Origin: Gracilimonas sp. | GTDB lineage: Bacteria; Bacteroidota; Rhodothermia; Balneolales; Balneolaceae | NCBI RefSeq assembly: GCF_040218225.1 | Contig: NZ_JAVJQO010000006.1 | Location: forward strand, 62,001-126,000 | Length of the DNA stretch: 64,000 bases | Reading direction: 5' to 3' | In this document: piece after piece, positions 39,615-57,700 of the stretch | Layout of the letters: each line of letters starts with the position of its first letter | How positions within the stretch are numbered: the first letter of the stretch is position 1 | Made by a program: the position numbers and the translations under genes | Notes under the pieces: model-generated | Database searches by the model: none | Told to the model about the DNA's origin: nothing | The model's input: the letters and a program-made list of their open reading frames with translations, nothing else

Positions 39615-40181
39615 TTAGTCTTCTAATTCATGAAGTTTGTTTTGCAGTTCTTCAAAAGCTTTAGAAGCCTTGAACTTGGTATACAGTTCTTCATCTTTAG
39701 AAAGTGCATTTTCAAGTACGGAACGAGCCTGACCTACCGGCATGCGTACCAATACGTAGCAACGCTGATTTACGTTACCACCGGTAACTTCAGGATTCAG
39801 TTGCTCACACTCGGCACGGTCGCGGGTAACACCATTCATAGTGTTGTTCACTAGCTGCTCACTGGCACTAGAGAAAGTTGCTGCGTAGTTGGCATTTGGG
39901 CCGCTTTGTACTTCTTCTTCAAAAGATTTTTGCAGAGCAGAAACTTTAACTTCAAGCTTTTGAGCCATTGCTGTGGTAGCATTGCTCTGAGCCATTCTTA
40001 GTGCAGTTCCCTGACGGCTGCTTTCAGCTTGTCCCGGTGCATAAAAGTATTCTTCAGTATCTGCCGGAGGAACCATTATCCAGTTCGGCATAGAACTTTG
40101 ACTGGTAACAGCTTTTTCGCCCCCGCAAGAAACCATAAAAGTAAATGCGAATAACGTTAATAGAATAGATTTCATTTTCAT
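39615..40181 (-). CDS. LPP20-family lipoprotein
   Basis: A 188-residue lipoprotein with lipobox FMVSCGG. The mature part has MPNWIMVPPADTEEYFYAPGQAESSRQGTALRMAQSNATTAMAQKL-type sequence, a clear LPP20 signature (a W-I-xxP motif, then an Ala-rich helix). It is followed by a region with CYVLVRMP. Members sit in the outer membrane or periplasm, and one is a surface antigen in Helicobacter. It is the first gene of the minus-strand pair, divergent from the transglutaminase-like gene 146 bp away. The start is ATG at 40181. Confidence 0.82.
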   Translation of the reverse strand: MKMKSILLTLFAFTFMVSCGGEKAVTSQSSMPNWIMVPPADTEEYFYAPGQAESSRQGTALRMAQSNATTAMAQKLEVKVSALQKSFEEEVQSGPNANYAATFSSASEQLVNNTMNGVTRDRAECEQLNPEVTGGNVNQRCYVLVRMPVGQARSVLENALSKDEELYTKFKASKAFEELQNKLHELED

Positions 40182-40327: not shown

Positions 40328-41872
40328 ATGGGGTTTTTCGAAAACATTTATACGGAGAAAAAATATTTCTCTGTTTTTCTGAGTTTTTTCTTCTCTGTTA
40401 TACTTATTCCAACCTGTATTCTGGCTCAGGATACGGAGTATGAAAAATGGAAGAAGCAACAAGAAGCTGAATTCAAAGAGTATCAGGATAAATTCGACAA
40501 AGAGTTTATTGAGATGCTGGAAAAGACATGGGAAGAGGTAGGCATCAATCCGGGCTCTGATTTCTATAAAGAGAAAAAACCAGTTTCGATTCCGGAAGCT
40601 CCGCCAAAACCTGCCGTTGAAAATGAGGCTCCCAAAGATGATACCCCGATTCGTGAACGGGTAGATATCGATATTCCGGATGCACCAGAACCAGAGCCTA
40701 TTAAAATTGAGAAGCCTCCTAAAGAGTCGATGTTTGGCGATATCGAAACCCGGACGGCTAATATCAATTACTTTTCTTCTACTATTCCGTTTGAATATCC
40801 GGCTCAGTTGCGCTCTTTATATTCTCCGCAGGAATTTTCTATGAGGAAAACGGATAACAAAAGAATTGCGGAATTCTGGGATAAAGTCAGCCGCATAAAC
40901 CACGACCCTATCATCTCTTATTCCAATAAAGTACGTGAAGAGCTAAAATTGAACGACTGGGGTTATTTACTGCTGATCAACGATTTTGCCAATACCGTTT
41001 ATGAAGGGTATGACAAAAAGCTTGTCAACCTTTACAACTGGTTTTTGCTGACACGAGCCGGATATAAAGTGCGCATTGGATATGATCAAAATGATGTATA
41101 TATCTTGTTTGCGGTAGAGTACAACGTATTCAATACCAAATACTATACCCTGGACGGTGAGCAGTACTATGTTATTGACCTGAATGAAGACAAGCAGACT
41201 CCAAGCTCCATCTTCACTTACACCGGTTCGCACCAAAGCCAAAGCAAGAAGCTTGACCTGAGAATTAAAGAATTCCCAAATTTAGGCGATACTAAAAACA
41301 CTGAGTCGCGGACGCTAGAGTTTTCTTTCAATGATAAGGACTACATCATTCCGGTTTCAATCGATAAGAATTTGATTACCTACTTCGAATATTTCCCGCT
41401 TACGGAACTTCCTGTTTTCTTTACAGCTTCATTATCTGAATCGTCTAAAAAGTCAATTTATGAGAAGCTTGCGCCTGCTATTGCAGATATGAATGAGGAA
41501 GAAGCCGTTAACTTCTTGCTCAGATTTGTGCAAACGGCATTTGACTACAAAACAGATCAGGATCAATTTGACCGGGAAAAATATATGGTTCCCGAAGAAA
41601 CGTTGTTTTATCCCTATTCTGATTGTGATGACCGATCCATTTTATTTGCTAACTTAGTGCAGGAATTGGTGGGGTTAGATGTAGTCGGACTTCGATACAG
41701 CAAGCATTTAGCTACAGCCGTTGCCTTCTCCGGCAATAGCGTGCAGGGCGACAGCCATTATCATTCAGGGAAAAAGTATATCGTTGCAGATCCAACCTAT
41801 ATAAACGCTTCTGTTGGAATGACCATGACTCAATACAAAAATGAACAACCAGAAATTGTAAGCTTACAATAA
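40328..41872 (+). CDS. Exported protein with transglutaminase-like C-terminal domain
   Basis: A 514-residue protein with a signal sequence (VFLSFFFSVILIPTCILAQ). A charged coiled segment (EYEKWKKQQEAEFKEYQDKF) and a Pro/Glu-rich linker (about residues 75-145) come next. The last ~100 residues show a transglutaminase/cysteine-protease-like triad: Cys in YSDCDDRSILFANLV, His in SKHLATAVAF and Asp in YIVADPTY. Such domains may be peptidases or amidases, or may bind without catalysis. Five bp separate it from the next gene, so cotranscription is likely. Part of the envelope gene run; the substrate is unknown. Confidence 0.78.
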   Translation: MGFFENIYTEKKYFSVFLSFFFSVILIPTCILAQDTEYEKWKKQQEAEFKEYQDKFDKEFIEMLEKTWEEVGINPGSDFYKEKKPVSIPEAPPKPAVENEAPKDDTPIRERVDIDIPDAPEPEPIKIEKPPKESMFGDIETRTANINYFSSTIPFEYPAQLRSLYSPQEFSMRKTDNKRIAEFWDKVSRINHDPIISYSNKVREELKLNDWGYLLLINDFANTVYEGYDKKLVNLYNWFLLTRAGYKVRIGYDQNDVYILFAVEYNVFNTKYYTLDGEQYYVIDLNEDKQTPSSIFTYTGSHQSQSKKLDLRIKEFPNLGDTKNTESRTLEFSFNDKDYIIPVSIDKNLITYFEYFPLTELPVFFTASLSESSKKSIYEKLAPAIADMNEEEAVNFLLRFVQTAFDYKTDQDQFDREKYMVPEETLFYPYSDCDDRSILFANLVQELVGLDVVGLRYSKHLATAVAFSGNSVQGDSHYHSGKKYIVADPTYINASVGMTMTQYKNEQPEIVSLQ

Positions 41873-41877
41873 TTAAA

Positions 41878-43791
41878 ATGTACTATTCAAAGAAAAATTC
41901 TATCTGCAAACAGATATTATTGCTGCTCTTCGCTGTTTTATTATCATCGAATGCCTTTGCTCAAACTCCGGATATCGAAACCATTAAAGCCGGTGATGAC
42001 TATTACTGGGGTGAATTCTGCTCCCAAAACCAAAGCGAAAGTGAATCAGCTGCCATCGATCAGCTTCTGTCAAAAATTGCCGTAAATATTGAATCTTCAT
42101 TTACCAATAAAGTATCCGAGAGCATTACTGACAATCAGGGAGAGTATAAGCAGGAAGTTGAAGGGATTGTAAAGACCTACTCTTCAGCTCAACTTAAAAA
42201 CCTCAAAACATTTAAAGAGCCACGTGATTGCGGTATTTACGTGTTCAGATACATTATGAAATCTTCTGTTAATGAGATTTTTGAAAACCGGAAACAGCTG
42301 GTTAAAGACATTTTTGATAAAGCAGAGGAATTTGAAGAAGAAGGAAATTATGCCAACGCACTGAAGTATTATTATTTCAGTATTGTGCTTTTAAATTCCA
42401 TTCCGGAATCAACCTTAATGCACAACGGAAGTAACTTATATACAGAACCCGGCTTCCGTATTCCTGATATTATACAGTCGGTACGTTTTGAAATTCTTTC
42501 CGACGAGATGCTTACCAATAAAGAGCGTGAAATTACGGTTGCTGTTTTGGTGGATGGCGAAAAAGCCGAAACTCTCGATTTTAGTTTTTGGGACGGCAGT
42601 AACTCCGTATCAGCAAAATCTATTGACGGAACAGCTACCATCAACCTGTACGGTTCCAGCACACAATTTAATTCGTTGAGAATCAACGTTAAGTATTCTT
42701 ATTACGAAAATAAGGATGAGATTAAGGAAGTGGGCGATCTTTGGGAACTCGTACGACGCCCTCCTTTCAACTATCCGAAAGAACTGGACCTGGATCAGCC
42801 TATCACTCAAAAGCAAAAAGAGGAGATCAAACAAAAGGTTGCTCTGGAGCCTATGAATGAAAGCTTCACGCTGAATACATTCATGGAAGAATTTGCACAA
42901 ACTGATGCAGTCGAAGAAGTTCAGGCTGTGGACGTTGAGGAACTCAAAGAAATTGTACCAGACCATCTCAAAAACCTTCAGGCCTACTTTAATGAAGAAA
43001 AGGAAACCGAAGCTTGGAAAGAAGATGAGTTTCTGGATAATAAATTGGCCAGCCTTGAGAAGTTTAATAACCTGAGCATTTCAAACAATACCTCTAAATC
43101 TGACATCAATAAAACAATGGAAGGATGGGAATTCCGGCAGCTATCTTCTACCGCCCGCTACCCTTCTGTGAATATGCAAAGCAAGGAATACCTAGTACCC
43201 GATTTTGACAGCACCGGAACCATGACCGACATCAACTTTGGAATTATGGATGGCATGTATGAGGAATTTCGCAGGGCTTCAAAGTTTGGTAAAGATTGGG
43301 ATAAGCGTCAGGTAATGATCAAATTTGTTGAAAAATACAGAACGGCTTATATGACCCGCGATTTGAGTCAGCTTGGAACTATGTTTGCAGAACAAGCTGT
43401 GATTATCACAGGCCGTGTGCTTAAGGTTGATGAAAGTGCCAGCAATAATTTTGCGTATGAGCAAAATCAGCCTTCCCAGCCCAATGTTGAGTATCTCCGC
43501 CAAACAAAACAAGAGTTTTTAGAGCGCCAGAAAGTTCTGTTTGCGTCCAAGCCTGATATCCACCTTGGTTTTTCCACTTTTAATATTATCCGGAAAAACA
43601 ATCAGGAAGGAATCTATGGTATTAGTATGCGTCAGAGCTATACTTCCACTAACTACTCGGATGAAGGATATTTATTTCTTCTGATCGACTTTAACGATGA
43701 AGAGCCTAAAATTTATGTTCGAGCATGGCAACCAAAGGAATGGTCTGAAGAAGCTTTAGTGGAATTAGGTAATTTTAACGTGAATTTTTAA
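41878..43791 (+). CDS. Exported protein with LPP20-like N-terminus and NTF2-like C-terminus
   Basis: A 637-residue protein with a signal peptide ending SSNAFAQ. Residues about 25-130 resemble LPP20 (YYWGEFCSQNQSESESAAIDQLLSKIAVNI). A helical stretch follows (EEFEEEGNYANALKYYYFSIVLL, TPR-like), then beta-rich sequence. The last ~150 residues (VEKYRTAYMTRDLSQLGTMFAEQAVIITG to KIYVRAWQP) look like an NTF2/SnoaL-type fold. The two neighbouring LPP20-like genes support a shared envelope role. The start is ATG at 41878, 5 bp after the transglutaminase-like gene. Role unknown. Confidence 0.75.
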   Translation: MYYSKKNSICKQILLLLFAVLLSSNAFAQTPDIETIKAGDDYYWGEFCSQNQSESESAAIDQLLSKIAVNIESSFTNKVSESITDNQGEYKQEVEGIVKTYSSAQLKNLKTFKEPRDCGIYVFRYIMKSSVNEIFENRKQLVKDIFDKAEEFEEEGNYANALKYYYFSIVLLNSIPESTLMHNGSNLYTEPGFRIPDIIQSVRFEILSDEMLTNKEREITVAVLVDGEKAETLDFSFWDGSNSVSAKSIDGTATINLYGSSTQFNSLRINVKYSYYENKDEIKEVGDLWELVRRPPFNYPKELDLDQPITQKQKEEIKQKVALEPMNESFTLNTFMEEFAQTDAVEEVQAVDVEELKEIVPDHLKNLQAYFNEEKETEAWKEDEFLDNKLASLEKFNNLSISNNTSKSDINKTMEGWEFRQLSSTARYPSVNMQSKEYLVPDFDSTGTMTDINFGIMDGMYEEFRRASKFGKDWDKRQVMIKFVEKYRTAYMTRDLSQLGTMFAEQAVIITGRVLKVDESASNNFAYEQNQPSQPNVEYLRQTKQEFLERQKVLFASKPDIHLGFSTFNIIRKNNQEGIYGISMRQSYTSTNYSDEGYLFLLIDFNDEEPKIYVRAWQPKEWSEEALVELGNFNVNF

Positions 43792-44098
43792 CTTATTTAT
43801 TGGCGATTTAATCGTTTTTGGGGAGGGGAAACCAAGGGCATTGCAATGGTGCTTTAGGTAATTTCAAGATGCACAGGGATGTGGGGATTTCTGTACATCA
43901 TTCTTCTCTTATTAGTAAAGGTACTATGTACAGTAATATAGCTAATTCTCTATGTAGGCTAAGCTATGTTTATCCCAATACTACATATATATGTAGTTAT
44001 TGTTTTCATAATTGTTTGTAATCTCTTTGCCAAAGTTCCCCGGGGACTGCCATGCATGGGGCTTACCAGTGATTTTAATCTTAAGAAGTAGTAAAAAA
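43792..44098. other. 307-bp intergenic region with an 18-bp palindrome
   Basis: Contains the perfect palindrome ACTACATATATATGTAGT at 43980-43997. The rest shows no coding frame. A reading frame continuous with the PEGA gene opens at 44012, but its first 29 codons look non-coding. The promoter for the PEGA gene probably lies here. Confidence 0.55.
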
Positions 44099-46051
44099 GT
44101 GTATACACAAAGATTCAAACTGTTATTCGTTCCCATTTTTCTATCCCTGTTATTTGGGTCTACCTCATTCAACGACATACATGCCCAGGATGAGACGGAA
44201 GAAATGTCTTCACTGAGAATAGTTGGTGAAGCCAAACGTCTGCCCAGCGAAATAATAGCTGACAGGGATGATAACCGGGATATAAACGGTAATCTAACAG
44301 CCGGACTTCGTATTATATCAGACCTTACAGGTTTGACTTTCCGCTCCAACAATGGAATCCATAAAGTACAGCAGCTTCCGGGATACAATCTTCTTTACCT
44401 GTCTACCAATGAGCGGGTAGTAAGTATCTATAAAGATGGCTACCCTCCTTTTCAGTTGGTTTTAAATGATGAAGGTATCAGTCTTGAGGCTGGCCAGGTT
44501 TGGGAGATACAGGTAACAGGCGATCAGAAATCTACACTGGAACCTGTTCAGTTTAATATTAGTCCCGAAAATAGCACGCTCTTTATTGATGGTGAAGAGT
44601 ACCAGGTTGACGGAACCGTTTTCGATACTGAACTGACAACGGGTGACCACTTTCTTCAGATTCGAAAAGACCGGCATGAATTTATAGATGACTCCATTTC
44701 AGTTTCAGCTGATCGTGTTAACACCTTCAGATATACTCTCGATCAAATTAACCCGGTTACTGTATTAATCAACTCAACTCCAGCCGGTGCCTCCATTTAT
44801 TTAAATGATGAGCCCGGAGCCCGGGGTGTAACTCCGCTTAGAGTTAACATCTATCCCGGAAATCTTAAGATTCGGCTTACTTATCCCGGTTATTCCAATG
44901 TAGAGGACGAACTCGAATTTACAGGTGCCAACAGGGAACTAAGCTATAATCTTCAGCGATACATTGGTTACCTCACCGTCAATACTACCCCGGAGGATGC
45001 CACCATCCTGATTGATGATCAGCCTCAAAGTAACCGGGAAAATATTGAGCTTGTTCCCGGTGCTCATATACTTGAAGTTCGTTCTTCCGGTTTCGATCCG
45101 GTGAGACGAACAGTGGATATTACTCAGGGTGATTCTCTTGTTGAAAATGTAACGCTGGGCCAAATTACAGGTAATCTGTTTGTGATAGCGCAACAAGAAA
45201 ATGCGGAATTCACGCTTCGAAAAGATGGACAGGTAGAACAAGAATGGGTTGGCTCAAAAACATTCAGGGATCTGCCGGTTGGCAACTATGAGCTAACTGC
45301 TGAACTGCTGAATTTTGATACTCAAACCCGAAATTTTGAGCTGCAACGAAATGATGACAGAGAGATAAGCATAGATTTGACTCAGATACAAGGGCGTGGC
45401 AGTCTGACCATAAATAGTGTATTCCCTGACGCTGAAGTACAGCTTAAAGGTCCCGGATACTCCCGTTCTTTTGATAAAACACCCGTTCAGCTCCCCTCTC
45501 TCCGGTTTGGCAAGTATCAGATTTCTATTGAAAAAGATGGGTTTAATGATGTGAATAAAGAAATACAGGTCAACTCATTGAGTCAGGAGGTTACTTTTGT
45601 CGATGAATTTCAGCCCCGAAGTAAAGGAAGGGCGATATTGCGTTCTGTAATTCCCGGGGCAGCATTCCCCGGAGTGGGTCATGGCTATCTTGGAAAAGGT
45701 GGGCGTGGCTTTCTGTATTTCCTGGCCGGAGGTGGTGCTATTGCCTACAGTATTAAGTCATATTTAGATTACAACAATTCTTATAAGAAATACGAAACTG
45801 CACTAGAGCTTTATAATAATGCCTCTTCAGGTGCTGACTTTGAGCAGCTTCGCACAGATTACCGCGGACATTACGCCACTGCCAATGATGCTTTGGATCA
45901 GCTAAAAGTAGGTATAACCGCCTATTTTGCCGTTAAAGGTGTTGAAATTGTTGATCTGTTGCTGCAAAAGTCAAACAAGAAGAAGCTGGAAAACGCAAAA
46001 ATTGAATTTAATGCCAAGAACAACGGACTTAGCATGCGGGTAAATTTTTAA
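44099..46051 (+). CDS. PEGA-domain exported protein with C-terminal membrane domain
   Basis: A protein of 650 residues from GTG 44099. I chose this start because a good signal peptide (FKLLFVPIFLSLLFGSTSFNDIHAQ) begins there; an upstream extension to 44012 lacks it. The centre is a row of PEGA-type beta repeats, for example VLINSTPAGASIYLNDEPGARGVTPLRV and LTVNTTPEDATILIDDQPQ, which often bind or line surface layers. The C-terminus (RAILRSVIPGAAFPGVGHGYLGKGGRGFLYFLAGGGAI) matches the DUF5683 type of membrane segment, as in other Bacteroidota envelope proteins. Three bp separate its stop from the next gene's ATG frame. Function is inferred as envelope-structural only. Confidence 0.82.
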   Translation: MYTQRFKLLFVPIFLSLLFGSTSFNDIHAQDETEEMSSLRIVGEAKRLPSEIIADRDDNRDINGNLTAGLRIISDLTGLTFRSNNGIHKVQQLPGYNLLYLSTNERVVSIYKDGYPPFQLVLNDEGISLEAGQVWEIQVTGDQKSTLEPVQFNISPENSTLFIDGEEYQVDGTVFDTELTTGDHFLQIRKDRHEFIDDSISVSADRVNTFRYTLDQINPVTVLINSTPAGASIYLNDEPGARGVTPLRVNIYPGNLKIRLTYPGYSNVEDELEFTGANRELSYNLQRYIGYLTVNTTPEDATILIDDQPQSNRENIELVPGAHILEVRSSGFDPVRRTVDITQGDSLVENVTLGQITGNLFVIAQQENAEFTLRKDGQVEQEWVGSKTFRDLPVGNYELTAELLNFDTQTRNFELQRNDDREISIDLTQIQGRGSLTINSVFPDAEVQLKGPGYSRSFDKTPVQLPSLRFGKYQISIEKDGFNDVNKEIQVNSLSQEVTFVDEFQPRSKGRAILRSVIPGAAFPGVGHGYLGKGGRGFLYFLAGGGAIAYSIKSYLDYNNSYKKYETALELYNNASSGADFEQLRTDYRGHYATANDALDQLKVGITAYFAVKGVEIVDLLLQKSNKKKLENAKIEFNAKNNGLSMRVNF

Positions 46052-46055
46052 GATT

Positions 46056-47015
46056 ATGGAATACCTAACGATGAATACTTTTAAAAAGCATATCCTTTTC
46101 ATTCTTTTGCTACTTATATCAGGAAGTATGATTTCCTGTGATACTATCATAAGCCAAATAAATGAGCTGCCTGAAACCGAAGATGACGGAGCAAGCAATT
46201 CAAATGATCCTACAGATCCCGACTACAAGTTGCCAGGTATCCGTTTTATTAATGCTGGTTTTTCACTGGATAATCCTTTTGAAATAACTCAGCGGGAAAT
46301 CACCCTTGAGTGGGACGTAATTAACGAAGAAGGCTCCAGTATTGATTTCAACTTCCAATATAGTTACCGCTATGCCTCTCCGGAAGAAAATATTCAGAAC
46401 AAAGACTTTCAGTCAGTCGAAGAGTTTCAGTCGATTACTATTTCTAACCTGATCGAAACGTTTGGGGAAAATTATTATACGTTCGAAATCTATGCAGAAT
46501 ATACTCCACCCAATTCTACCGTATTAAAAGACACCACCTTTACCGGACAATTTTCGGTGAATGCATTCCAGAGTCGTGGGTTTCTGTTTAACCCTCAGGT
46601 AATAACCAGTAACAATGATGGTACCTATACGGCAAAAGTCTATTTGGACGAAATCCAGGAAAGTGACGACCTCACGGCCTTCTCTTTGGTTTTAAATTAT
46701 AATGCTGTTTTCCTGGCGGTTACCGATGTACAGGTATTTGGAGAAGCAGGAAGCTTCCTGAATCCGGATGGAAATAACACACTCATCTATGTAGAGCCGG
46801 AAATCACATCAAATTTTATAACTATTGAAGCCGGTATTGCCGGAAGCGGAGTAACCCTCTCCGGCGGTGGTGCCGTTTGTGAAGTAACCTTTACGCCAAC
46901 TGGCAGCTTCCCCGGAAGTACCGCCCTATATATACATAACACTTCTGTGCTAAAGTCTTCCGAAGGCTTTGACATAGATATTTTGTCCTATGATCAGGCT
47001 AATGTTGTCCAATAA
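46056..47015 (+). CDS. Lipoprotein with a cohesin-like domain
   Basis: A 319-residue protein with a lipoprotein signal and lipobox MISC (Cys near residue 28 from ATG 46056; ATG 46071 is an equally possible start). Residues about 190-315 resemble a cohesin domain. TYTAKVYLDEI is the first strand, AFSLVLNYNAVFLAVTDV has the typical hydrophobic strand with NYN, and SGGGAVCEVTFTPTG is the late G-G/C-V-F signature. The middle has an Ig-like beta pattern. It lies 14 bp before the dockerin-bearing giant protein, which has its own cohesin-like domain. It may anchor that protein at the surface, which is inference. Confidence 0.8.
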   Translation: MEYLTMNTFKKHILFILLLLISGSMISCDTIISQINELPETEDDGASNSNDPTDPDYKLPGIRFINAGFSLDNPFEITQREITLEWDVINEEGSSIDFNFQYSYRYASPEENIQNKDFQSVEEFQSITISNLIETFGENYYTFEIYAEYTPPNSTVLKDTTFTGQFSVNAFQSRGFLFNPQVITSNNDGTYTAKVYLDEIQESDDLTAFSLVLNYNAVFLAVTDVQVFGEAGSFLNPDGNNTLIYVEPEITSNFITIEAGIAGSGVTLSGGGAVCEVTFTPTGSFPGSTALYIHNTSVLKSSEGFDIDILSYDQANVVQ

Positions 47016-47089
47016 GATTCGGGAAAACTATGTATTCAAAAGAATTAACTAACTCTGCGTTTATCAACCGCGCTGTAACACGTTGTATT

Positions 47090-50000
47090 ATGAAAAAAGG
47101 CTTTATACTATTTGGGATATTTACATTCGGGTTTCTTACCTCTTCCTCTGCTCTTGCACAGGATAAAACAACTGATACGCAACCGGTTTCACCTTTACCT
47201 CTGAGTGGAAATTCGGAAATAATATCAGAGAGCCCGGTACAGCCAGTAACTTTTGACAGAAACGAACTTGCAGAAAGTGAGCTTTTCCCGGCTTCGGATA
47301 CAGTATACAGCTTTGCTGATGGGTTAATCCCGAACAATTTTGACCCTTTCACAGGTGGTACAAAGTTTGGGCGAACCACTTCTCCCAACTCGTGGATTAT
47401 AGAACAGTCGGCCAATACACTAAACAGTGGTTATAGCATCCGAAGTGGAGATATCGATCATTCCGAGAATAGTAACACCGGCATTTTTGTACATATTGCA
47501 GAAGGCGGTGGTGCGCTTCAATTTCAGTATCGAATTAGTTCTCAACAAAATTTCGACTTCTTTTACCTGGAAATTGCCGGAACGGTAGTTGATTCAGCCT
47601 CAGGCAACATTGCGTGGACCAACAGCCCGGTTTATGATCTGCCAGCTGGTGAATATTATATTGACTTCTGGTTTTCGAAAGATGAAACCGAAGATGATCC
47701 TAATGGTATTGATGCCGTATTCCTCGACGATATTTCCATTACCGGATTAGACACCACACCGGTTAAAATTACCGGAATACACCCCAATGCGGCCGCTCCT
47801 TTTTCACAGATCAGTATCTACGGAAATGGGTTCTCTCCAAGTGTAGTTCAATCGGTGAGTTTTGGTGGTACCTATGGTACTGTACAATCTGTTTCTGATA
47901 ATAAATTAGTCGTTCAGGTTCCCCAAGCCAATGTTGGCTTTAATGACGTTACCGTTGGTAACTATTACGGGAGTGATACCTATTCCGGATTTTCTGTATT
48001 GAATGCGGTAGATGCCAGTTTTGGTGCTCAGAATGTTATTTCTACATCTGTAAATGACCCCTATGAATTATCTTATGCTGATTTAGACAATGATGGAGAC
48101 TTAGATATCCTTTCAGCATCTTACAATGATGATAAAATCGCTTGGTATCCTAATAATGGAGACGGAACCTTTGCATCCCAACTTATTATTTCTACTCTTG
48201 CTGACGGAGCTTTATCAGTTTTTGCTTCGGATTTAGACAGTGATGGATATCTGGATGTTATTTCTGCATCAGACCTTGGTAATAAAATTGCGTGGTATAA
48301 GAATAATGGTGATGGAACATTCGGTTCTGAAACTATTATATCATCTCTTACAGATGGAGCTAATAGCGCTATATCATATGATCTGGACGGAGATGGGGAT
48401 ATGGATGTAATTTCAGCCTCTGAGAATGACAACAAAATTGCCTGGTATGCAAATAATGGAGATGGAACATTTGGTGCTCAAGATATAATTTCTACTTCTG
48501 TAGCTGGGGCCAAAGACTTATATGCTGGTGATTTAAATAATGATGGAATTCTGGATTTATATGTAGCATCATATAGCACAGATGAAATCGCATGGTTTGA
48601 AGGCAATGGTGATGGCACTTTTAATTCTAAGGTAACAATATCAAGTAGTGTAGATGAGGTAACAGAGTTAGCACATGCTGATTTTAACGGCGACGGATAT
48701 CAGGATATCGTAGCTGTTTCTTTTGGAGATCATAATCTTTCATGGTTTCCAAATAATGGTGATGGAACATTCGGAGCTCGAATTGTCCTATCAAATAATA
48801 CTGTGAGTGCTCTGAGTGTAAGTACTGGAGATATAAATGGAGATGGACATCAGGATATTATTTCATCTTCTGGAGGTACTTTCAGGTTAGAATATCATTT
48901 AGGAAATGGTGACGGCACTTTTGATACAGACAACCTTATTTTTCAAACCGCAAATGGGGCTAGAAGTGTTAGAAGTGCAGATTTTGATGGAGATGGTGAT
49001 CTGGATATCATATCCGGTGATTCTAATAATAACATCGCCTGGTATGAAAACACAGGGACCGAAATTGTTTCTTACGTAACCAAAGTAGCTCCTGAAGCTG
49101 CAGCTCCCGGATCTTCCATTCAGATTTACGGTTCCGGTTTTAACGGCTCCACAGAAGTTTATATCGGAGGTGTTCCTGCCACCGTCGAGTCTTTTCAATC
49201 CACCAAACTGACCGTCACCGTACCTTCTATCAATCCGGGCAACTATAACGTTCTTGCCCAAACGGATGGTGATATTGCTGAATACGCCGGGTTATTTACC
49301 GTTGTCAGCAATCAAGTTACATTTTTTGAGCAGACTGATACGCTTGAAACAGGATTAAATAGCTTTAGTTCTCTCCTCCAAACCACTGCTGACTTTGATA
49401 ATGACGGTGACCTGGATGTGCTTTCCAGTCATTTCAAATCACAATATGAGCTTTTCTGGTATGTTAATGATGGTTTTGGCGGACTTACTTCCAAGCAACT
49501 AATTGCTAATTCTTTAGCCAATCATGCAAACTCAACGGATTTTGACAATGATGGAGATGAGGACCTGGTTTATTGGACTACCCTTGGAACCGACTCCCTG
49601 CTGTATTTACAAAATAATGGAGACGGTACGTATCAAAATGCGGTACAAATCGCATATGCGGCCAGTGGGACCGGAGCAGCGGTTAGCGGTATAGAATCGG
49701 CCGACATCAACCATGATGGATATCCTGATTTAATTGTGTTTTTCGAAGCAATCAATGACATAGCTTTTTTCCTGAACAATGGGGATGGAACTTTTGCTGC
49801 AGAACAGTTTATTGACCAAAATGCCAACGATATTAATGATGTCCACTTTGCAGATTTAAACGGGAACGGATATCTCGACATGATTACGGCCCAGCGCTCC
49901 CCTTCCAACGTGATCCAATGGTACACCAACGATGGTATCGGAAATTTTTCTTTTGCGGGAGTTCTTTCAACCGGATTTAACTATTACCTGGTAGGTACTT

Positions 50001-53000
50001 CTGACATTAATGGAGATGGAAACCTGGATATTATTGGGGGACATACCACGGGGATTGGCTACCTTATTAATAACGGCAACTCTACCTTTGGCTCTCACAT
50101 TTCGATTACTTCAGCACAATCCGCCTATACTTTCCTCGCCATCCGGGATATGGATGGAGACGGAGATGAAGACTTTGCAGGGTATGGTACGGATTTGTTC
50201 TGGGTTGAGAAGGAAGGCACTTTCACTTTTGGAGAACCTCAGATTATAGAGAAAGAAAATGTCAATGTTAGCGGATTTGGAGACTTCAATTCCGATGGTG
50301 ATACAGATATCATCACTTATGACGCTACTAATAACTATGTCTATCAAATAGAAAATGTAGTTCCCAATCCTGCCATAACAGAGATCATACCAAAAGCAGC
50401 GGCTCCCGGATCGGAGATAGAAATTTGGGGTAAGGGTTTTTCCAAAAATCTTTCTGAAGTGACCGTGAGTTTTGACGGGGTGGATGCCACCATCGTTGAA
50501 TCAACCGGTTCGCTAAGTTACGGAAACCGATTGGTGGTTGAAGTTCCAAGCATGAGTGCAGGTCCTGCTGAGATCAGTGTGACAAGCCTGGGTAATACAA
50601 GTACGCTATCCGGACAGTTTACTGTGCTTAAGTCAGAAGGCGCATATTTCACATCCCAGAATGTTATTTATAACGCTCCGGAACAACCATTCATCAGCAT
50701 ATTTGCTGACATCAATGGAGACGGATATCAGGATGTAGTTGCCTGGTCAGAGACCAATGATAATCTGGACTGGTTTGAAAATAACCAGGCCGGAAGCTTT
50801 GGAAGCCGAACTCCGATTGCCAGCAATGTGAATGTGGAATTCATGGAACCAACCGATATTGACAACGACGGCGATATTGACTTGGTAGTTTTGGATGCCA
50901 CAAACAGATCTATAAAAGTTTATCCAAACTTGGGTACCGGTTTATTCAGCAGCCCATACGAACTATGGAACTACAATACCGAGAATGGTATCTCCCCCAC
51001 ATTCAGAGGCTTTGAGATTTCAGATGTGAATGGAGACGGATTAAAAGACTTTGTTGTAGGTATGAACTATATCACATTCAGTGGTTCTACCACCTACTAC
51101 TGGAGAGTTGTTTGGCACGAGAATAAAGGTAATGGAACACTTGGTGATATAAATAATATCTTTAATTATTCAACTTTCAGTAATCCCGGCACACAATTCA
51201 CAAACTTTGAAGTGTCTGACTATGACAGCGATGGTGATCAGGACGCACTGATTGCAATAAACGGGGGAAGTCAAATTCGTTTATATGAAAACGAAGGGTT
51301 TGGTACCTTCAGTGCTTCCGATTATCAATATATTTATAACCCTGATAACATCTTTGATTTTAAAGTCGCGGATTTGAATAAAGATGGTTTTAAGGATCTG
51401 ATTATTAGCCGGCAATATGTCGGAACCAGCTTCAGCAATAATATTTCTGTTACTCAAAGTAATGGTTCTCAATCCCCTCCTATAACTGTACTTAATGAAA
51501 GTCCCGGTTCTGCGAATGATATCAGAGTGTTAGATTTTAACGGAGACGGAAACCTTGATATCGTAGCTTCATATCTGGGTCTGGATCAAATTACGATTTA
51601 TACCACCGATGGCACATCCGTAACCGATACTATTACCGTAGCCACTTCAAGTGATATAGATACACCTCGCTTTATTGACGTTGGAGATGCCGACAATGAC
51701 GGCGACCTAGATATTGTTTCCGCCTCTTCTTCTGATGATAAAATCGCCTGGTATGAAAATGAAGCGCCACCAGTTGAACTTTCAACCATTGCAGAAGCCC
51801 GGCAAACAGCGAATGGAGAAACAGTTCGGGTTCAGGGAATCATCACCCGGAAACATGAAAATATATTTAAGATCCAGCAGAATAATGCCGGATTACATTT
51901 ATACGCTTCAGCAGATTTCAATACACCTCTCTTTAACGGAGGCATACAAATTGGTGATTTGGTAGAAATTACGGGCACAGTTTCTGAAGTAAATTCTATG
52001 AAGGAATTGATCAACATTTCATCGGTAAATGTCATCTCATCCGGAAACTCACTTCCCGCACCCGTCGATATTGTACTTTCTCAGGTTTCCGATTTTGAAC
52101 AGTATGAATCTGTACTGGTTACGGTAAATAACCTTTCCGTTACTGAAGCCGGACAAAACTTCGTTAATGAAACGGATTATGATATTTACGAAAACGATCA
52201 ATTAAGCAGTATTCGCCTTACAGTCGGCCCTGATTTCACTACAGAAATTGCAGGACAGCTTATACCGGATGATTTCGAATACACCGGCATTATATACCAA
52301 AGCTCATCCGGCGGAAGCGATGGCTATGCGTTATATCCAATCAATAACAGCGATGTTCGGTACTATACTCCTGACAACGAATTTATTTCTCTTGAAACCG
52401 CCAAAAACCAAATCGACAGTTCTTTTGTAAGAGTACGTGGAGTGGTAACTTCACCTAACTTCCAGGCATCAGCTAATAACACCGCTTTTTATATTCAGGA
52501 CGGTGATTTCGGGATTGTTGTATTTAATGATGATTTGGCTGTTTCCGGAGTTACCCCCGGGGATAGCGTGGAAGTGGAAGGCGAACTCGAAACCTTCAAT
52601 GGCCTTCGTGAAATTCTTGTTGGCGATATCAACAATAACATCTCGGTTCTCAACAGTGGGAACACCTTGCCGGATCCAAAGTCTGTAAGTTATAATGACT
52701 TTATTAATGCCGGTGATCCATCCACGGATCTGCAAAACCTTCAGGGCACCTTAGTCAGAATTAATGACCTGATTACCGACCCTGGTACATGGCCTGCCAA
52801 TGCATCAGCAACTAACACAAACGTAACTGCAGAAACATTTACTGGAAATTCAGTAACTATTCGGCTTTGGGCTCAAACGGAAGTTATTGGAGATACACCT
52901 CCTTCCTATCTGGACCTTGTGGGTGTGTTAGGCTCATTCAATGGTGCACAAATCGCTCCACGTTTCTCAAATGATATTATTCCTATTGAGACACCCGGCC

Positions 53001-56000
53001 CATTAAATATGACAGCTTCCGCAGGAACTTCTTCCATCGACCTTGACTGGGAACCAAGTCCGGCCCCTAACATCGGAGGTTATAATGTGTACCGTTCAAC
53101 ATCTTCTTTTATCGATTCAACGGCAGCAACCCGACTAAACACTACGGTAATAGATGACACCAGTTATACGGATACAACTCCGGTTGAAAATACGACCTAT
53201 TACTACCGTGCCGCAGCTTATGACTCTGTAACGGGCAACTTATCTCAGTTAAGTGATGAAGTAGCTGTGCCATTCAAAATTAAGAGCCTTTATGCACTGT
53301 CTGCAACCGCCGGTGTTACTGGCAGCACGCTAACCATTTATGGAGCTAATCTTACCAACAGTTCGCTCGAAGTTCAGATTGGCGGGCAGAATGCGACTAT
53401 TGCTTCATCTGACTCGATCAAGATTTCAGTAACAGTTCCTGCTTTATCACCCAGCACCTACGCTGTTACAATCAACATCAATGGAGATGTAAATCTCAGA
53501 GCCCCGGATATGTATACCGTTTTGGAAGATACACCTGATGAAAGCGGGTTTTTCCAGGATCCATCTACTCTGGCTACTTTGTCTGGCGTTCTTGAAATTC
53601 AAACCCCTAATCTGGATAACGATCAGGATCTCGATATTCTTACCGCTTCCTATAACGAAAATGCATTTAACAATGTAGGATATCTGGAAAACCTCGGTAA
53701 CCTGACTTTCTCTGGTCTGCAGGAAATTGGAGAAACCGGTGATGCCCGTGCACGCAGCGTCACCTATGCTGATTTTGATGGCGACGGAATTCTGGATGTA
53801 GTCGCTGCTTACAACAATCTTCTGGCCTGGTTCCGGAATGATGGCTCCAATACTTTCAACAGCGTTGAAGGTTCAGTGATTGAAACATTCCCGGTAATCA
53901 CAAACTACAATTCCCAGGATGTCATAGCTTTTGATGTGAACCTCGATGGTGATACCGATATCATTCATGTACATACCGTAACTGATGATATCTCATATTA
54001 TGAGAATGATGGAACCGGATCTTTCCAGCTTCAACAAGTAATAGATGGAAATGCTCCTTTAGCTAATGATGTAAAAGCCGCAGATTTTGATGGGGATGGA
54101 GATTTCGATCTAGTCGCCTCAATTGAAGCTTCAGGTGAAATTGTTCAGTATGTAAATAACGCCGGAACCTTTAATACGGCTTCTGTAATTACCTCTTCTG
54201 TGGATTCACCTAAAAATGTTGTAACTGCAGATTTGGATAATGACGGCTTTATTGATGTGCTTTCGGTTTCGCAAAATGATTCAAAGGTAGCATGGTACTC
54301 CAATGGTTCCGGAACCGGAGTATTCTCAGCACAGAATATTATTTCCAGTGACATGACTGATCCTTTTAATGCAACAGCTGCCGACTTAAATGGGGATGGC
54401 TTAAACGACGTTATTGTTTCTACCCTTAACGGGGACCTGGTGTGGTATCAAAACCTGGGTTCCGGAAGTTTTGATACCGCCGTTAGCCTGCTATCTGGTG
54501 CCGGAGAATTACGCTCGGTTGCTGCTGCTGACCTGACAGAAACAGGTTTGCTAGATTTAATTGCAGGAGACTACACAGCTAATCAATTGATTTTACTAAA
54601 AAATGTGGATACTCCTCCTGCACCTCCAACGGGTGTGGCGGTTTCCGGAAATATTGGTTCTGCTTCAATTAGCTGGAATCCCAATACTGAAACCGATCTT
54701 CTGGGATATGATGTAGTTCGCAGTACAAACCCTGACGCAGATGGTTTTACCTCCCTGCTTGGCTCACCACAAACCGGAACCACATACGAAGATACCGGCC
54801 TGAATAACGGTGTAACCTACTACTATCGAGTGGTTGCTATCGACTCCAGTAACACACGGGTAGCATCTGATACCGTGAGCATTAAAGCCGTATCAACACA
54901 GATTTCCGGTATTCATCCAGCAACAGGTATTGAAGCAACCCGTGTTAAAATCTCAGGAATTGGATTTTCTAATGTTCAATCTGAAAATCAGGTACAGTTC
55001 AATGGAACATCAGCAACCATTCTTAGTGCCGACTCCGCCTCCATCATTGTGGAAGCTCCGTCAGGATTATCCGGGTTTGTTGACATATCTGTAACAGCCA
55101 ATAGTATTGGATATACCTATCCGGGCAAATATCTTTACTTATCTGAAAGTGAAGGCACATTTGGCCAGTTCGAAACCCAAACAGGTTTTTCAGGCACCGG
55201 AAATATTACTTCTGCTGACATTGATGCTGATGGCTTTGAAGACCTGATCGCCACCCGCCCTAACGACAATCAAATATCATTGATTTTCTCCGATGGGGAT
55301 GATCCGTTCAACAGAGTAGTAAACCTGAACTTCTCGGGTTCTTTATCCCCAAGGATTATTCGGCCAATTAATATTTTTGGAAATGAATACCCTGATTTTG
55401 TATTCACATCGAATCTGAATAATGAATTCAAAGTATTGAAGAATAACGGAGGAAGCACCTCAGGCGGCAACTTCCTGGATCAAACTACAGTAACAGTTAA
55501 TCACGCAGGTATTACCGATATCTTCCCTGCTGATATGAATAATGATGGTTACACCGACGTTGTGATCTCTTCAGCCAATGATGGAAAAATAAGCTGGTAC
55601 GAAAATCAAAGTTTCCTTTCTGAGGTAGCTTTTGGCCCGGAAAACCAAATCGTTGATAACAGTAATTTAATGAACTCTATTTACGCGGCAGATTTCAATG
55701 GCGATAACCTTACTGATATTGTATCGGCTGAGAATATTGGAAACGAAGTGGCTTTATATCAGAATAATGGAGATGGTTCCTTTACCCGGTCAATTATCGC
55801 TTCAGGTATTAATCACCCGGAAAGAGTAACAGCTGCTGATCTTAATAATGATGGAAATCTGGATGTACTTTTTGCTTCTTCTGACGACGATAAGGTCGGA
55901 GCCTTCATCAACAACGGAGATGGCACTTTTGGTACTGAAAATGTGATTGCAACCGGAATCTTGGGAGCACTGGATGTTTCTGCTGCAGATCTCAACGGCG

Positions 56001-57700
56001 ATGGACTTGTCGATATCCTGGCCACATCATCCAATAATGGCGAAGGATACTGGTTCCAGAATAACGGAAGTAACACTTTCTCCACTGCTAATACACTCAC
56101 AAGTGCATTTAGTGGGGCAATCAGCATTCACGCTTATGACTCGGACGGAAATGGCAATCTTGATGTTGCCATCCGCGGACGAGACAGTGGTACACTTGGA
56201 GTTGGCAAAAACTTCCTGATTACCGCTCTTCAAATCGAGCAGTTTCTTTCAAACGATAGCATTGTAAGCCTTTCAGATGGACTTGAGTTTGTGTTCGACA
56301 CCGACCTGTCTACCCTCGATAATTTCGCCAATTATATGGACGGAACAATTACTATCTCGAATCATGATGGTGAAACATTCTCGGCTGGCGCCATAAATAT
56401 CGAAGGCAATAGTCTGATTGCTGATGACATTAACTTCTATTCGTTAGATACACTTTTTGTAGATATATCTTCTCAGGCTTTATATGATAATAGTGGTGGA
56501 AGGTATTTCATAGACATCGACGGCGATGGAATACGAACTTCTGAAGATGACCGCTATTTCTCAGAGGATGACTTCTACACAACCATGATTGGTGATTTTG
56601 ATAATGACCTGGATGTGGATTTTGATGACCTGAATTCCTTCAGCGATGGCTGGAGAAATGATGAGTTCGGTTATGAAACCGCTCCGCTTGATTTTGGAAC
56701 TACACTGAGTTTCCCCAATGCGCGTTTAAATGGAGATAACGATTTCAATATTGATGATATCGTTGCTTTTATCCGTTTCTGGAACCTTACACAGGAGCGA
56801 AGCAAAGTAGCTAAAGCTCAGGATATGGCTGCGAAAATAGCTTCTCTGGAAAGTGGCTCATCAATAGATGAGGTAGCTTCAGGCCAGAATATTCTAAAGG
56901 CGGGAACCAAAGATTTGAGTAACAATACTGATGCCGTTCAGAAGAATTCAAAACAAAAGCCTGAAATCTCTATCTCTGATTCTCTTCAATTCATCAGCTA
57001 CTCAAAGAATGAGCAGGTTCATGAATATGTGCATGATCAGAATGCAGCGCGTGAAGTAACCTATACTTTTGCTCTTTCCCACCCTGATAGTGTGATGGCG
57101 CTTTCTCTGATTATTGACTACGAAGAGGATAAACTGAGCATTTCGGATATTAAAAATCACGATCTGTTCAACATCCATAGCAGCAATGCTAATGTATTTC
57201 TATCTCATGTAGACAGCACCAATGGTATCATCACATTGAATGTGGCAAATTTTGGTACGTTGTCGAGTGTACAGGATAGAAAGATTGTTTCTCTAACATT
57301 CAATTCTCTTGACGATCAGGATTCAGAAATTATTATTTCATCTGATCTGAGAGCCAAAGGCCAGCCTGCCCTGCAGCAGATTGCAAGAAAAGCAATCAGG
57401 GTAGCCGAAGAACTGCCGGGAAGCTTTACCCTTTCACAAAACTATCCAAACCCGTTCAACCCAACTACTACAATTCATTACGAGCTGGCAGAACAGGCTA
57501 AAGTGAACATCTCCGTGTTTGATATCCTGGGCCGTAAGGTAGAAACACTGATCAGCGAGAATGGGGTTCGTCCCGGGTACTACAAGCTTAACTGGGATGC
57601 TTCCAGATATGCCTCAGGCATGTATATTTATGTTCTTAATGTGAAATCAACATCCGGGAAAGCATACTCCATGACTAAAAAGATGGTGCTGGTAAAGTAA
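47090..57700 (+). CDS. Giant T9SS-secreted protein: FG-GAP/VCBS repeats, IPT/TIG, dockerin-like, cohesin-like
   Basis: About 3,536 residues from ATG 47090, which opens a standard signal peptide ending SALAQ; an ATG at 47030 adds 20 residues. Five IPT/TIG domains lie near 47.76, 49.08, 50.37, 53.28 and 54.90 kb. Five blocks of FG-GAP/VCBS repeats (DxDxDG calcium loops plus NNGDGTF) lie between and after them. Two OB-like domains (51.8, 52.4 kb) and two FN3 domains (53.0, 54.6 kb) are present. A dockerin-like pair of loops (GDFDNDLDVDFDDL, LNGDNDFNIDDI) is at 56.59-56.79 kb and a cohesin-like domain at 56.98-57.37 kb. The end YPNPFNPTTTI ... ILGRKVETLI is a type A T9SS signal. Likely a surface adhesin or scaffold; the ligand is unknown. 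Confidence 0.93.
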   Translation: MKKGFILFGIFTFGFLTSSSALAQDKTTDTQPVSPLPLSGNSEIISESPVQPVTFDRNELAESELFPASDTVYSFADGLIPNNFDPFTGGTKFGRTTSPNSWIIEQSANTLNSGYSIRSGDIDHSENSNTGIFVHIAEGGGALQFQYRISSQQNFDFFYLEIAGTVVDSASGNIAWTNSPVYDLPAGEYYIDFWFSKDETEDDPNGIDAVFLDDISITGLDTTPVKITGIHPNAAAPFSQISIYGNGFSPSVVQSVSFGGTYGTVQSVSDNKLVVQVPQANVGFNDVTVGNYYGSDTYSGFSVLNAVDASFGAQNVISTSVNDPYELSYADLDNDGDLDILSASYNDDKIAWYPNNGDGTFASQLIISTLADGALSVFASDLDSDGYLDVISASDLGNKIAWYKNNGDGTFGSETIISSLTDGANSAISYDLDGDGDMDVISASENDNKIAWYANNGDGTFGAQDIISTSVAGAKDLYAGDLNNDGILDLYVASYSTDEIAWFEGNGDGTFNSKVTISSSVDEVTELAHADFNGDGYQDIVAVSFGDHNLSWFPNNGDGTFGARIVLSNNTVSALSVSTGDINGDGHQDIISSSGGTFRLEYHLGNGDGTFDTDNLIFQTANGARSVRSADFDGDGDLDIISGDSNNNIAWYENTGTEIVSYVTKVAPEAAAPGSSIQIYGSGFNGSTEVYIGGVPATVESFQSTKLTVTVPSINPGNYNVLAQTDGDIAEYAGLFTVVSNQVTFFEQTDTLETGLNSFSSLLQTTADFDNDGDLDVLSSHFKSQYELFWYVNDGFGGLTSKQLIANSLANHANSTDFDNDGDEDLVYWTTLGTDSLLYLQNNGDGTYQNAVQIAYAASGTGAAVSGIESADINHDGYPDLIVFFEAINDIAFFLNNGDGTFAAEQFIDQNANDINDVHFADLNGNGYLDMITAQRSPSNVIQWYTNDGIGNFSFAGVLSTGFNYYLVGTSDINGDGNLDIIGGHTTGIGYLINNGNSTFGSHISITSAQSAYTFLAIRDMDGDGDEDFAGYGTDLFWVEKEGTFTFGEPQIIEKENVNVSGFGDFNSDGDTDIITYDATNNYVYQIENVVPNPAITEIIPKAAAPGSEIEIWGKGFSKNLSEVTVSFDGVDATIVESTGSLSYGNRLVVEVPSMSAGPAEISVTSLGNTSTLSGQFTVLKSEGAYFTSQNVIYNAPEQPFISIFADINGDGYQDVVAWSETNDNLDWFENNQAGSFGSRTPIASNVNVEFMEPTDIDNDGDIDLVVLDATNRSIKVYPNLGTGLFSSPYELWNYNTENGISPTFRGFEISDVNGDGLKDFVVGMNYITFSGSTTYYWRVVWHENKGNGTLGDINNIFNYSTFSNPGTQFTNFEVSDYDSDGDQDALIAINGGSQIRLYENEGFGTFSASDYQYIYNPDNIFDFKVADLNKDGFKDLIISRQYVGTSFSNNISVTQSNGSQSPPITVLNESPGSANDIRVLDFNGDGNLDIVASYLGLDQITIYTTDGTSVTDTITVATSSDIDTPRFIDVGDADNDGDLDIVSASSSDDKIAWYENEAPPVELSTIAEARQTANGETVRVQGIITRKHENIFKIQQNNAGLHLYASADFNTPLFNGGIQIGDLVEITGTVSEVNSMKELINISSVNVISSGNSLPAPVDIVLSQVSDFEQYESVLVTVNNLSVTEAGQNFVNETDYDIYENDQLSSIRLTVGPDFTTEIAGQLIPDDFEYTGIIYQSSSGGSDGYALYPINNSDVRYYTPDNEFISLETAKNQIDSSFVRVRGVVTSPNFQASANNTAFYIQDGDFGIVVFNDDLAVSGVTPGDSVEVEGELETFNGLREILVGDINNNISVLNSGNTLPDPKSVSYNDFINAGDPSTDLQNLQGTLVRINDLITDPGTWPANASATNTNVTAETFTGNSVTIRLWAQTEVIGDTPPSYLDLVGVLGSFNGAQIAPRFSNDIIPIETPGPLNMTASAGTSSIDLDWEPSPAPNIGGYNVYRSTSSFIDSTAATRLNTTVIDDTSYTDTTPVENTTYYYRAAAYDSVTGNLSQLSDEVAVPFKIKSLYALSATAGVTGSTLTIYGANLTNSSLEVQIGGQNATIASSDSIKISVTVPALSPSTYAVTININGDVNLRAPDMYTVLEDTPDESGFFQDPSTLATLSGVLEIQTPNLDNDQDLDILTASYNENAFNNVGYLENLGNLTFSGLQEIGETGDARARSVTYADFDGDGILDVVAAYNNLLAWFRNDGSNTFNSVEGSVIETFPVITNYNSQDVIAFDVNLDGDTDIIHVHTVTDDISYYENDGTGSFQLQQVIDGNAPLANDVKAADFDGDGDFDLVASIEASGEIVQYVNNAGTFNTASVITSSVDSPKNVVTADLDNDGFIDVLSVSQNDSKVAWYSNGSGTGVFSAQNIISSDMTDPFNATAADLNGDGLNDVIVSTLNGDLVWYQNLGSGSFDTAVSLLSGAGELRSVAAADLTETGLLDLIAGDYTANQLILLKNVDTPPAPPTGVAVSGNIGSASISWNPNTETDLLGYDVVRSTNPDADGFTSLLGSPQTGTTYEDTGLNNGVTYYYRVVAIDSSNTRVASDTVSIKAVSTQISGIHPATGIEATRVKISGIGFSNVQSENQVQFNGTSATILSADSASIIVEAPSGLSGFVDISVTANSIGYTYPGKYLYLSESEGTFGQFETQTGFSGTGNITSADIDADGFEDLIATRPNDNQISLIFSDGDDPFNRVVNLNFSGSLSPRIIRPINIFGNEYPDFVFTSNLNNEFKVLKNNGGSTSGGNFLDQTTVTVNHAGITDIFPADMNNDGYTDVVISSANDGKISWYENQSFLSEVAFGPENQIVDNSNLMNSIYAADFNGDNLTDIVSAENIGNEVALYQNNGDGSFTRSIIASGINHPERVTAADLNNDGNLDVLFASSDDDKVGAFINNGDGTFGTENVIATGILGALDVSAADLNGDGLVDILATSSNNGEGYWFQNNGSNTFSTANTLTSAFSGAISIHAYDSDGNGNLDVAIRGRDSGTLGVGKNFLITALQIEQFLSNDSIVSLSDGLEFVFDTDLSTLDNFANYMDGTITISNHDGETFSAGAINIEGNSLIADDINFYSLDTLFVDISSQALYDNSGGRYFIDIDGDGIRTSEDDRYFSEDDFYTTMIGDFDNDLDVDFDDLNSFSDGWRNDEFGYETAPLDFGTTLSFPNARLNGDNDFNIDDIVAFIRFWNLTQERSKVAKAQDMAAKIASLESGSSIDEVASGQNILKAGTKDLSNNTDAVQKNSKQKPEISISDSLQFISYSKNEQVHEYVHDQNAAREVTYTFALSHPDSVMALSLIIDYEEDKLSISDIKNHDLFNIHSSNANVFLSHVDSTNGIITLNVANFGTLSSVQDRKIVSLTFNSLDDQDSEIIISSDLRAKGQPALQQIARKAIRVAEELPGSFTLSQNYPNPFNPTTTIHYELAEQAKVNISVFDILGRKVETLISENGVRPGYYKLNWDASRYASGMYIYVLNVKSTSGKAYSMTKKMVLVK
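48152..48910 (+). repeat. Exact 150-nt periodic repeat inside the giant gene
   Basis: The conserved codons NNGDGTF (or a close variant) begin at 48152, 48302, 48452, 48602, 48752 and 48902, an exact 150-nt spacing with no indel over six units. Each unit is a 50-residue FG-GAP repeat with a DxDxDG loop. Similar spacing (147 and 150 nt) recurs near 55763, 55910 and 56060. Confidence 0.92.

Follow-up and report, generated by a model that had tools for sequence, protein, structure and literature searches.

A conserved, non-cellulosomal gene pair predicted to encode a cohesin-like lipoprotein and a dockerin-like giant type IX secretion protein in Gracilimonas sp.

Among the described systems that come closest to the locus reported here is the cellulosomal cohesin/dockerin pair (type I/II; anchoring scaffoldins), in which one partner is cell-anchored and the other resides on the docked protein. 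Non-cellulosomal archaeal cohesin/dockerin pairs have been discussed (PMC9012536), and a cohesin of this kind from Archaeoglobus fulgidus is available as PDB 2xdh. For Candidatus Stygibacter (Cloacimonadota) a cellulosome-like system was proposed in which cohesin/dockerin proteins are combined with a T9SS-type CTD for surface attachment, and in which dockerin-bearing GH and peptidase enzymes are placed on a 3,755-aa multi-cohesin scaffoldin (PMC8542988). As far as the relevant passages of the papers go, it is the one T9SS-linked system proposed among the open-access papers that contain 'cohesin', 'dockerin' and 'type IX secretion'. A different arrangement is known for the T9SS cargo proteins SprB and PG1035, which carry a type B tail and for which SprF/PorP-like beta-barrels, as dedicated outer-membrane partners usually clustered with the cargo gene, were proposed as anchors (PMC9143113, PMC10202324). 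In the pertinent sections of further reports, the genome of a T9SS-bearing cellulolytic Bacteroidetes was described as having no cohesins or dockerins (PMC5831590), Fibrobacter succinogenes as being without typical cellulosomal genes (PMC6851124), and some Bacteroidota single-cell genomes as having Pfam dockerin matches, with cohesin named only in a Firmicute (PMC10266427). The main text of a 2024 survey of cellulosome-displaying bacteria makes no mention of Bacteroidota, Bacteroidetes or lipoprotein (PMC11557425).

Here, a stretch of 64,000 nucleotides from Gracilimonas sp. (the window) was analysed, in which a gene for a lipoprotein with FN3-like and cohesin-like parts is followed by a gene for a giant T9SS protein (Table 1). 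The pair resembles the cellulosomal one in its family-level cohesin/dockerin homology and in the distribution of the partners over a predicted cell anchor and a protein to be docked. Unlike in the cellulosome, the predicted anchor is a lipoprotein, no multi-cohesin scaffoldin was found in the genome, the second dockerin loop is degenerate, the insert between the two loops is longer than in cellulosomal dockerins, and the docked protein would be a giant T9SS cargo in which no enzyme domain was recognised. The first-pass annotation of this DNA had already set the locus apart from a classical cellulosome for want of a glycosidase, and this was borne out: no glycosidase (GH) family was among the Pfam matches of lipoprotein or giant up to E 1, and Pfam Cohesin (E up to 1) matched a single domain genome-wide. 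In contrast to the multi-cohesin scaffoldin of Candidatus Stygibacter, one predicted lipid-anchored cohesin is here combined with a giant that has dockerin-like, cohesin-like and CTD parts. The Archaeoglobus fulgidus cohesin, which was matched by the profile of the lipoprotein domains (A7, see below) with an E value of 9.4e-4, is likewise non-cellulosomal but archaeal and without T9SS. With the SprF/PorP-like anchors the locus would share a dedicated partner encoded near the cargo gene, whereas an FN3-cohesin lipoprotein and a type A tail take the place of the beta-barrel and the type B tail. A lipoprotein-anchored cohesin was not found in the open-access PMC papers searched, and an earlier notice is possible in the survey of non-cellulosomal modules by Peer et al. 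2009. The first-pass annotation had spoken of a new use of cohesin/dockerin pairing; due to the fact that non-cellulosomal pairs and a T9SS-tailed system had been proposed before (PMC9012536, PMC8542988, in the passages concerned), the claim is here narrowed to the lipoprotein-anchored form and to the literature searched.

Table 1. Features of the locus and of its surroundings, in positions of the window
Feature	Positions	Strand	Remarks
LPP20-type lipoprotein gene	39615..40181	-	divergent; LPP20 34.8 bits, cut-off 25.9
PEGA-domain protein	44012..46051	+	directly upstream of the FN3-cohesin-like lipoprotein; PEGA 6.5e-35
FN3-cohesin-like lipoprotein gene	46056..47015	+	319 aa; lipobox-type MISC, Cys28 at 46137-46139
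FN3-like domain, lipoprotein	46263..46505	+	approximately residues 70-150; profile A6 against PDB
Cohesin-like domain, lipoprotein	46569..47012	+	family profile A7 against PDB; Pfam on members
Giant T9SS protein gene	47030..57700	+	3556 aa from first ATG; likely start 47090
Dockerin-like module, giant	56582..56800	+	family profile A9; Ca loop 1 56594-56629, degenerate loop 2 56723-56758
Cohesin-like domain, giant	56972..57403	+	Pfam Cohesin 26.9 bits, cut-off 24.1
T9SS type A sorting tail	57443..57697	+	Por_Secre_tail 32.6 bits (cut-off 27); TIGR04183 31.1 bits (cut-off 23)

The domain assignments were based on alignments of 15 lipoprotein domains (A7), 12 cohesin-like domains of giants (A8) and 14 dockerin-like modules (A9). 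A lipobox-type Cys was present in all 15 lipoprotein relatives (signal peptide and lipobox, by pattern), and no clear Bacteroidota lipoprotein export signal was seen by eye after Cys28. Profile A6, built for the lipoprotein, resembled FN3-type PDB chains around positions 59-161, with Pfam fn3 staying under cut-off in two of the relatives; apart from the FN3 and cohesin parts, the profiles revealed nothing barrel-like in the lipoprotein. For its C-terminal end, for which a cohesin-like domain had been noted earlier, the outcome differed between the single sequence and the family. No Pfam Cohesin match was obtained with the window's stretch 46590-47012 at E up to 10, and a six-frame search of the own genome with the same model (E up to 1) returned the domain of the giant and not that of the lipoprotein. 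In the comparison of profile A7 with PDB, however, all 21 rows up to E 1 were chains that go by the name of cohesin, scaffoldin or cellulosome anchoring (lowest E 3.2e-5), and Pfam Cohesin matched 10 of the 15 family members (best 1.5e-5), the window's own not among them. By these family-level matches, the lipoprotein domain is predicted to be cohesin-related.

Structure models of the lipoprotein domain and of the dockerin-like module were generated from single sequences and were of low confidence (pLDDT 51 and 48, the latter for the lipoprotein domain, which was modelled with nine strands). The first Foldseek row for this lipoprotein-domain model was cohesin 2vo8 with an E value of 5.0e-3, directly followed by a cellulose-binding domain with 5.3e-3, and a second structural comparison (VIA) placed cohesin 1aoh (Z score 7.8) level with AP2 mu2 and Gram-positive pilins. 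Because of this tie, these rows are taken as weak support for a jelly-roll cohesin fold. The model of the dockerin-like module, equally of low confidence, matched nothing in PDB by Foldseek.

As a single sequence, the window's dockerin-like module had no match to Dockerin_1, and weak Dockerin_1 matches were located elsewhere in the giant (54149-54259, E 3.6; 55691-55864, E 4.8). At the level of the family, Dockerin_1 matched 5 of the 14 modules (best 1e-6), without the window's own, and all 10 PDB rows of profile A9 up to E 1 were chains of cellulosomal proteins with 60-88 residues (best E 0.014). Three of these are named dockerin (6kgc, 6kge, 6kg9), further ones are so by entry title (2vn5, 2vn6, 1ohz), and the remaining rows we take to be dockerins as well. 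Moreover, the lists of A7 and A9 contain partners of the same solved complexes, namely 6kgc A and B and 2vn5 A and B. An assignment of its loops as mere FG-GAP calcium loops was considered and is not borne out by Pfam, which matched Dockerin_1 and families of the EF-hand type in the set of 14 modules, FG-GAP being absent. Three leucine-rich repeat (LRR) 'Rab family' chains that had stood above the dockerins in the PDB search with the alignment of 8 sequences (A5) were gone with that of 14 (A9). By family profile, the module of the giant is therefore predicted to be dockerin-related. Taken together, the search with Pfam Cohesin and Dockerin_1 that had been proposed in the first-pass annotation succeeded singly for the cohesin-like domain of the giant, failed singly for the window's lipoprotein domain and dockerin-like module, and succeeded for both of the latter at family level; NCBIfam, applied to the single sequences of the window, likewise gave no name to these two.

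A canonical dockerin loop comprises 12 residues with ligands at positions 1, 3, 5, 9 and 12. Loop 1 of the window's module (DFDNDLDVDFDD) has D at all five of these positions; the ligand pattern is thus complete in the window, as it mostly is in the relatives, with D at position 12 in 14 and at position 1 in 13 of the 14 modules. In loop 2 all 14 modules have D or N at position 5 together with D at position 12, and none has D, N or E at position 1. Since position 1 of loop 2 lacks a ligand residue, the double calcium loop that had been described for 56.59-56.79 kb is read here as one full and one degenerate loop; the dockerin relation of that description held by family profile. As two full loops are not present, the module is named dockerin-like.

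The lipoprotein and the giant are separated by 14 bp when the first ATG of the giant is used or by 74 bp with the ATG at 47090, which reproduces the spacing given before; the latter start is likelier because of the better-looking signal peptide. Pfam assigned 32 FG-GAP_3 stretches, 5 TIG and 2 fn3 domains to the giant, and an OB-fold-like part stayed under cut-off. Toward the C-terminus the order is dockerin-like module, a 57-residue linker, cohesin-like domain and T9SS tail; the module ends 214 residues before the tail. The Por_Secre_tail match covers residues 3472-3541 of the giant, and the CHU_C model stayed under cut-off on the tail (14.6 of 27). The machinery proteins SprA (1535 bits) and PorU (1084 bits) are encoded in the own genome. 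By the tail models and these two genes, the giant is predicted to be a type A T9SS cargo, and both the T9SS signal and the own cohesin-like domain that had been attributed to it before were confirmed by models over cut-off. A terminator-like hairpin at 57607-57623 was disregarded because it lies inside the coding region, and no terminator-like site was found within 43700-47200.

The distribution of the two genes was followed first in the family, where the lipoprotein occurs in 7 of 92 genomes. In 6 of the 7, the C-terminal region of the giant was matched far above the general T9SS-tail matches that are common to all 92. For G035, the initial match was confined to residues 205-432 of this region and the whole tail was matched in a later search; in G029, the gene after the lipoprotein looks FG-GAP-like by eye and is truncated at the end of the contig. 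The own genome yielded at least 19 matches to the C-terminal region of the giant, nearly all to the sorting tail; a single one has the dockerin/cohesin tail, and it is exactly this one that the lipoprotein adjoins. Wider searches gave 15 lipoprotein loci. Nine of them, found in distant genomes, directly adjoin a large T9SS-tailed protein with a dockerin-like module, the lipoprotein gene coming first or second (G000, G023, G027, G024, G035, G010, G467:C46, G441 and G331); for the genomes covered, this is a favourable outcome of the synteny check that had been recommended for the pair. Of the other six, two have a truncated neighbouring gene (G029, G121) and one lies at the end of its contig (G467:C5). 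Lipoprotein and dockerin giant are 7.8 kb apart in G250 and on different contigs, with other neighbours at the lipoprotein, in G122; in G293, listed as 100% complete, the lipoprotein is present and no dockerin-like module was found. A dockerin-like module was also not found in G121 (67% complete) and G029, where the genes next to the lipoprotein are cut. Conversely, no lipoprotein was found in G526 and G110 (the latter with the narrower profile A1), which have the dockerin-like module and in both of which the giant lies at a contig end. In G467 both partners are present twice.

In 394 genomes of the phylum, searched for each of the two partners, the lipoprotein was counted in 10, the dockerin-type tail in 10 and both in 9 (Fisher 1.7e-16). 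After removal of the 7 genomes that served as profile sources, 2 genomes with both, 1 and 1 with a single partner and 383 with neither remained (p 1.2e-4). These p values are guides only, because related genomes are not independent and were treated as if they were. For the lipoprotein, 49 of the 394 genomes were listed by the search, of which the 10 with matches spanning the FN3-like and cohesin parts were taken and 39 partial ones dropped; in other searches, G205 was dropped, its match coming from a cohesin stretch within a frame of 2481 aa. The tail search listed 12 of the 394 genomes, of which 10 with the dockerin part were taken and G079 and G470, matched in the cohesin part only, were dropped. 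Were G470 included, the dockerin genomes that lack the lipoprotein would be two. Both searches were judged to cover the same draw by their matching genome lists. When the dockerin profile alone was run against 80 chosen genomes, E values below 1e-25 were obtained in G331, G441, G467, G526 and G250, all five of them profile sources; weak matches appeared in G470 (2.9e-5), G254 (4.9e-4) and G296 and G278 (0.006-0.01), and none in G121, G029 and G293. It had been argued beforehand that regular occurrence of either gene on its own would speak against a functional pair; in the 394-genome sample, 9 of the 10 lipoprotein genomes have both. The pair is thus real as a conserved, non-cellulosomal, cohesin/dockerin-like gene pair, as judged from sequence comparison.

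Three observations concern the assemblies. Contig C5 of G467 (L088) ends just past the lipoprotein gene and contig C12 (L148) starts inside a dockerin giant, and the two may be genomic neighbours. In G024 the cassette is present twice (C6 and C13; L047, L048), with lipoproteins equal in length and match scores and giants of 3196 and 3259 residues, which is either an assembly duplication or variation in repeat number; the second copy (C13) was not taken as a locus. Contig C13 of G029 (L052) looks foreign to its genus by eye and contains approximately 5-10 kb without coherent genes, possibly rRNA; the genome is listed with 4% contamination, and the contig may be a contaminant, in which case the cassette would belong to another lineage.

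From the computed domain identities at family level, the gene pairing, the T9SS tail and the two T9SS machinery genes, we infer with a rough probability of 0.5 a two-part surface tether, in which the cohesin of the lipoprotein holds the dockerin-like module of the giant. The T9SS would export the giant through the outer membrane, after which the C-terminus of the giant would stay at the cell surface. Since type A cargo is retained through a processed C-terminus (PMC10202324), the dockerin-like module should sit near the membrane after secretion; if the lipoprotein faces outward, its cohesin would be placed near that module. The module would then dock, probably with calcium, into the cohesin of the lipoprotein, itself held by its lipid, and this docking would pin or organise the base of the giant. 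Its long variable front of FG-GAP, TIG and fn3 repeats might extend away from the cell like the arm of an adhesin. The giant has a cohesin-like domain too, which may accept a dockerin, be it from a neighbouring giant or from the same one. Against the tether it counts that the window's two modules miss Pfam singly while the giant's own cohesin passes, that loop 2 is degenerate and that the structure models are poor.

The main alternative, held to be less likely than the tether, is that the module binds the cohesin of the giant itself, folded back or head to tail, and that the cohesin of the lipoprotein caps the end of a chain or serves another partner. An alignable cohesin-like domain, picked by eye, follows the module in 12 of the 14 dockerin-tailed giants, including that of G526, in which no lipoprotein was found; the stretches of G122 and G110 were left out of A8. 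The linkage of module and cohesin within the giants is at least as tight as the pairing with the lipoprotein, and in the window the two are separated by the linker of 57 residues, with the giant's domain passing Pfam and that of the lipoprotein not. Pfam Cohesin matched 8 of the 12 members of A8, and of the 7 PDB rows of this profile 6 were cohesins (best E 0.011). Profiles A7 and A8 aligned with an hhalign probability of 95.9 over 88 columns and cross-matches occurred in G035, by which the cohesin-like domains of lipoprotein and giant are predicted to be homologous. Binding within or between giants does not account, however, for the presence of a dockerin giant in 9 of the 10 genomes that have the lipoprotein, nor for the usual adjacency of the two genes. 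In addition, the lipoprotein family matches solved cohesins better (3.2e-5 versus 0.011 as best E), although the Pfam shares of the two families, 10/15 and 8/12, are alike.

Even less probable is a purely structural role, in which the module would be a calcium-stiffened stalk and the cohesin-like domains Ig-like spacers without docking, the genes being together as those of co-expressed surface proteins. Such modules are described, in the passages concerned, from organisms without cellulose use and with no known role (PMC9012536), and the second loop, degenerate in 14 of 14 modules, speaks for such a role. A cohesin relative and a dockerin relative in neighbouring genes, across distant families, rather form the pattern of an interacting pair. 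The genome G470, which is without the lipoprotein, also speaks against a purely structural role, as a differently anchored cohesin is encoded there close to weak dockerin-like modules. The cohesin protein in question (G470:C1; L149 6627-7403, minus strand) is secreted, 258 aa long, scores 30 bits against a cut-off of 24.1 and carries a T9SS tail; its neighbours are T9SS-tailed proteins in which such modules were matched (E 2.9e-5 to 3.8e-5), and the two neighbours scanned gave no Pfam cohesin. This may be the same logic, with the T9SS tail replacing the lipid as anchor of the cohesin. That the lipoprotein serves specifically to help secrete or attach the giant, perhaps from the periplasmic side, as PorP/SprF do for type B cargo, is highly improbable, since despite the adjacency in 9 of 15 loci and the clustered cargo/helper genes and PorP-like anchoring known for type B cargo (PMC9143113, PMC10202324), the tail of the giant passes type A models, PorU is present, the lipoprotein has FN3 and cohesin parts by profile and nothing barrel-like, and the other T9SS-tail proteins of the genome have no such lipoprotein because it occurs once.

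Across the giants the fronts differ, with FG-GAP/TIG in the window, cadherin/Big in G467:C46, Reelin/Kre9-like parts in G441 and FG-GAP with WD40-like parts in G467:C12, whereas the dockerin-like module, the following cohesin-like stretch (12 of 14) and the T9SS tail are constant. As for the neighbouring genes, 10 of the 15 loci have a PEGA-kind gene, recognised by its place and its similarity, next to that of the lipoprotein; among these 10, Pfam PEGA was significant in 5, a sixth had DUF5683 only and four were outside the scan. Elsewhere the PEGA protein is fused to a caspase-like domain or carries DUF5683. Genes of the PEGA type (as at 44012-46051) and of the LPP20/DUF4384 type (the 39615-43791 side) recur beside the pair in several families, the latter near the cassette in L064, L051 and L147, where three of four LPP20 scores were under cut-off. 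Additionally, L053 2844-7514 (G000:C4) encodes a 1556-aa protein with a T9SS-like tail, in which a trypsin-like protease part and propeller-like repeats were recognised by eye.

The recurrence of both partners in distant bacteria suggests that a connector of the cellulosome has been reused to hold giant surface proteins. An extension of the tether to the whole phylum is put forward tentatively, as somewhat less than an even chance: lipid-anchored FN3-cohesin receptors would capture diverse dockerin-tailed T9SS giants in a non-cellulosomal docking system, providing plug-in anchoring beside A-LPS attachment, and the cohesins of the giants would chain or cross-link them into a surface layer. If the binding is true, cohesin-dockerin docking would be a general holder of giant surface proteins in T9SS bacteria, beyond cellulose breakdown, and T9SS cargo would have a second anchoring route. 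It would also explain a conserved gene cassette without a name in the family libraries and supply new cohesin-dockerin pairs.
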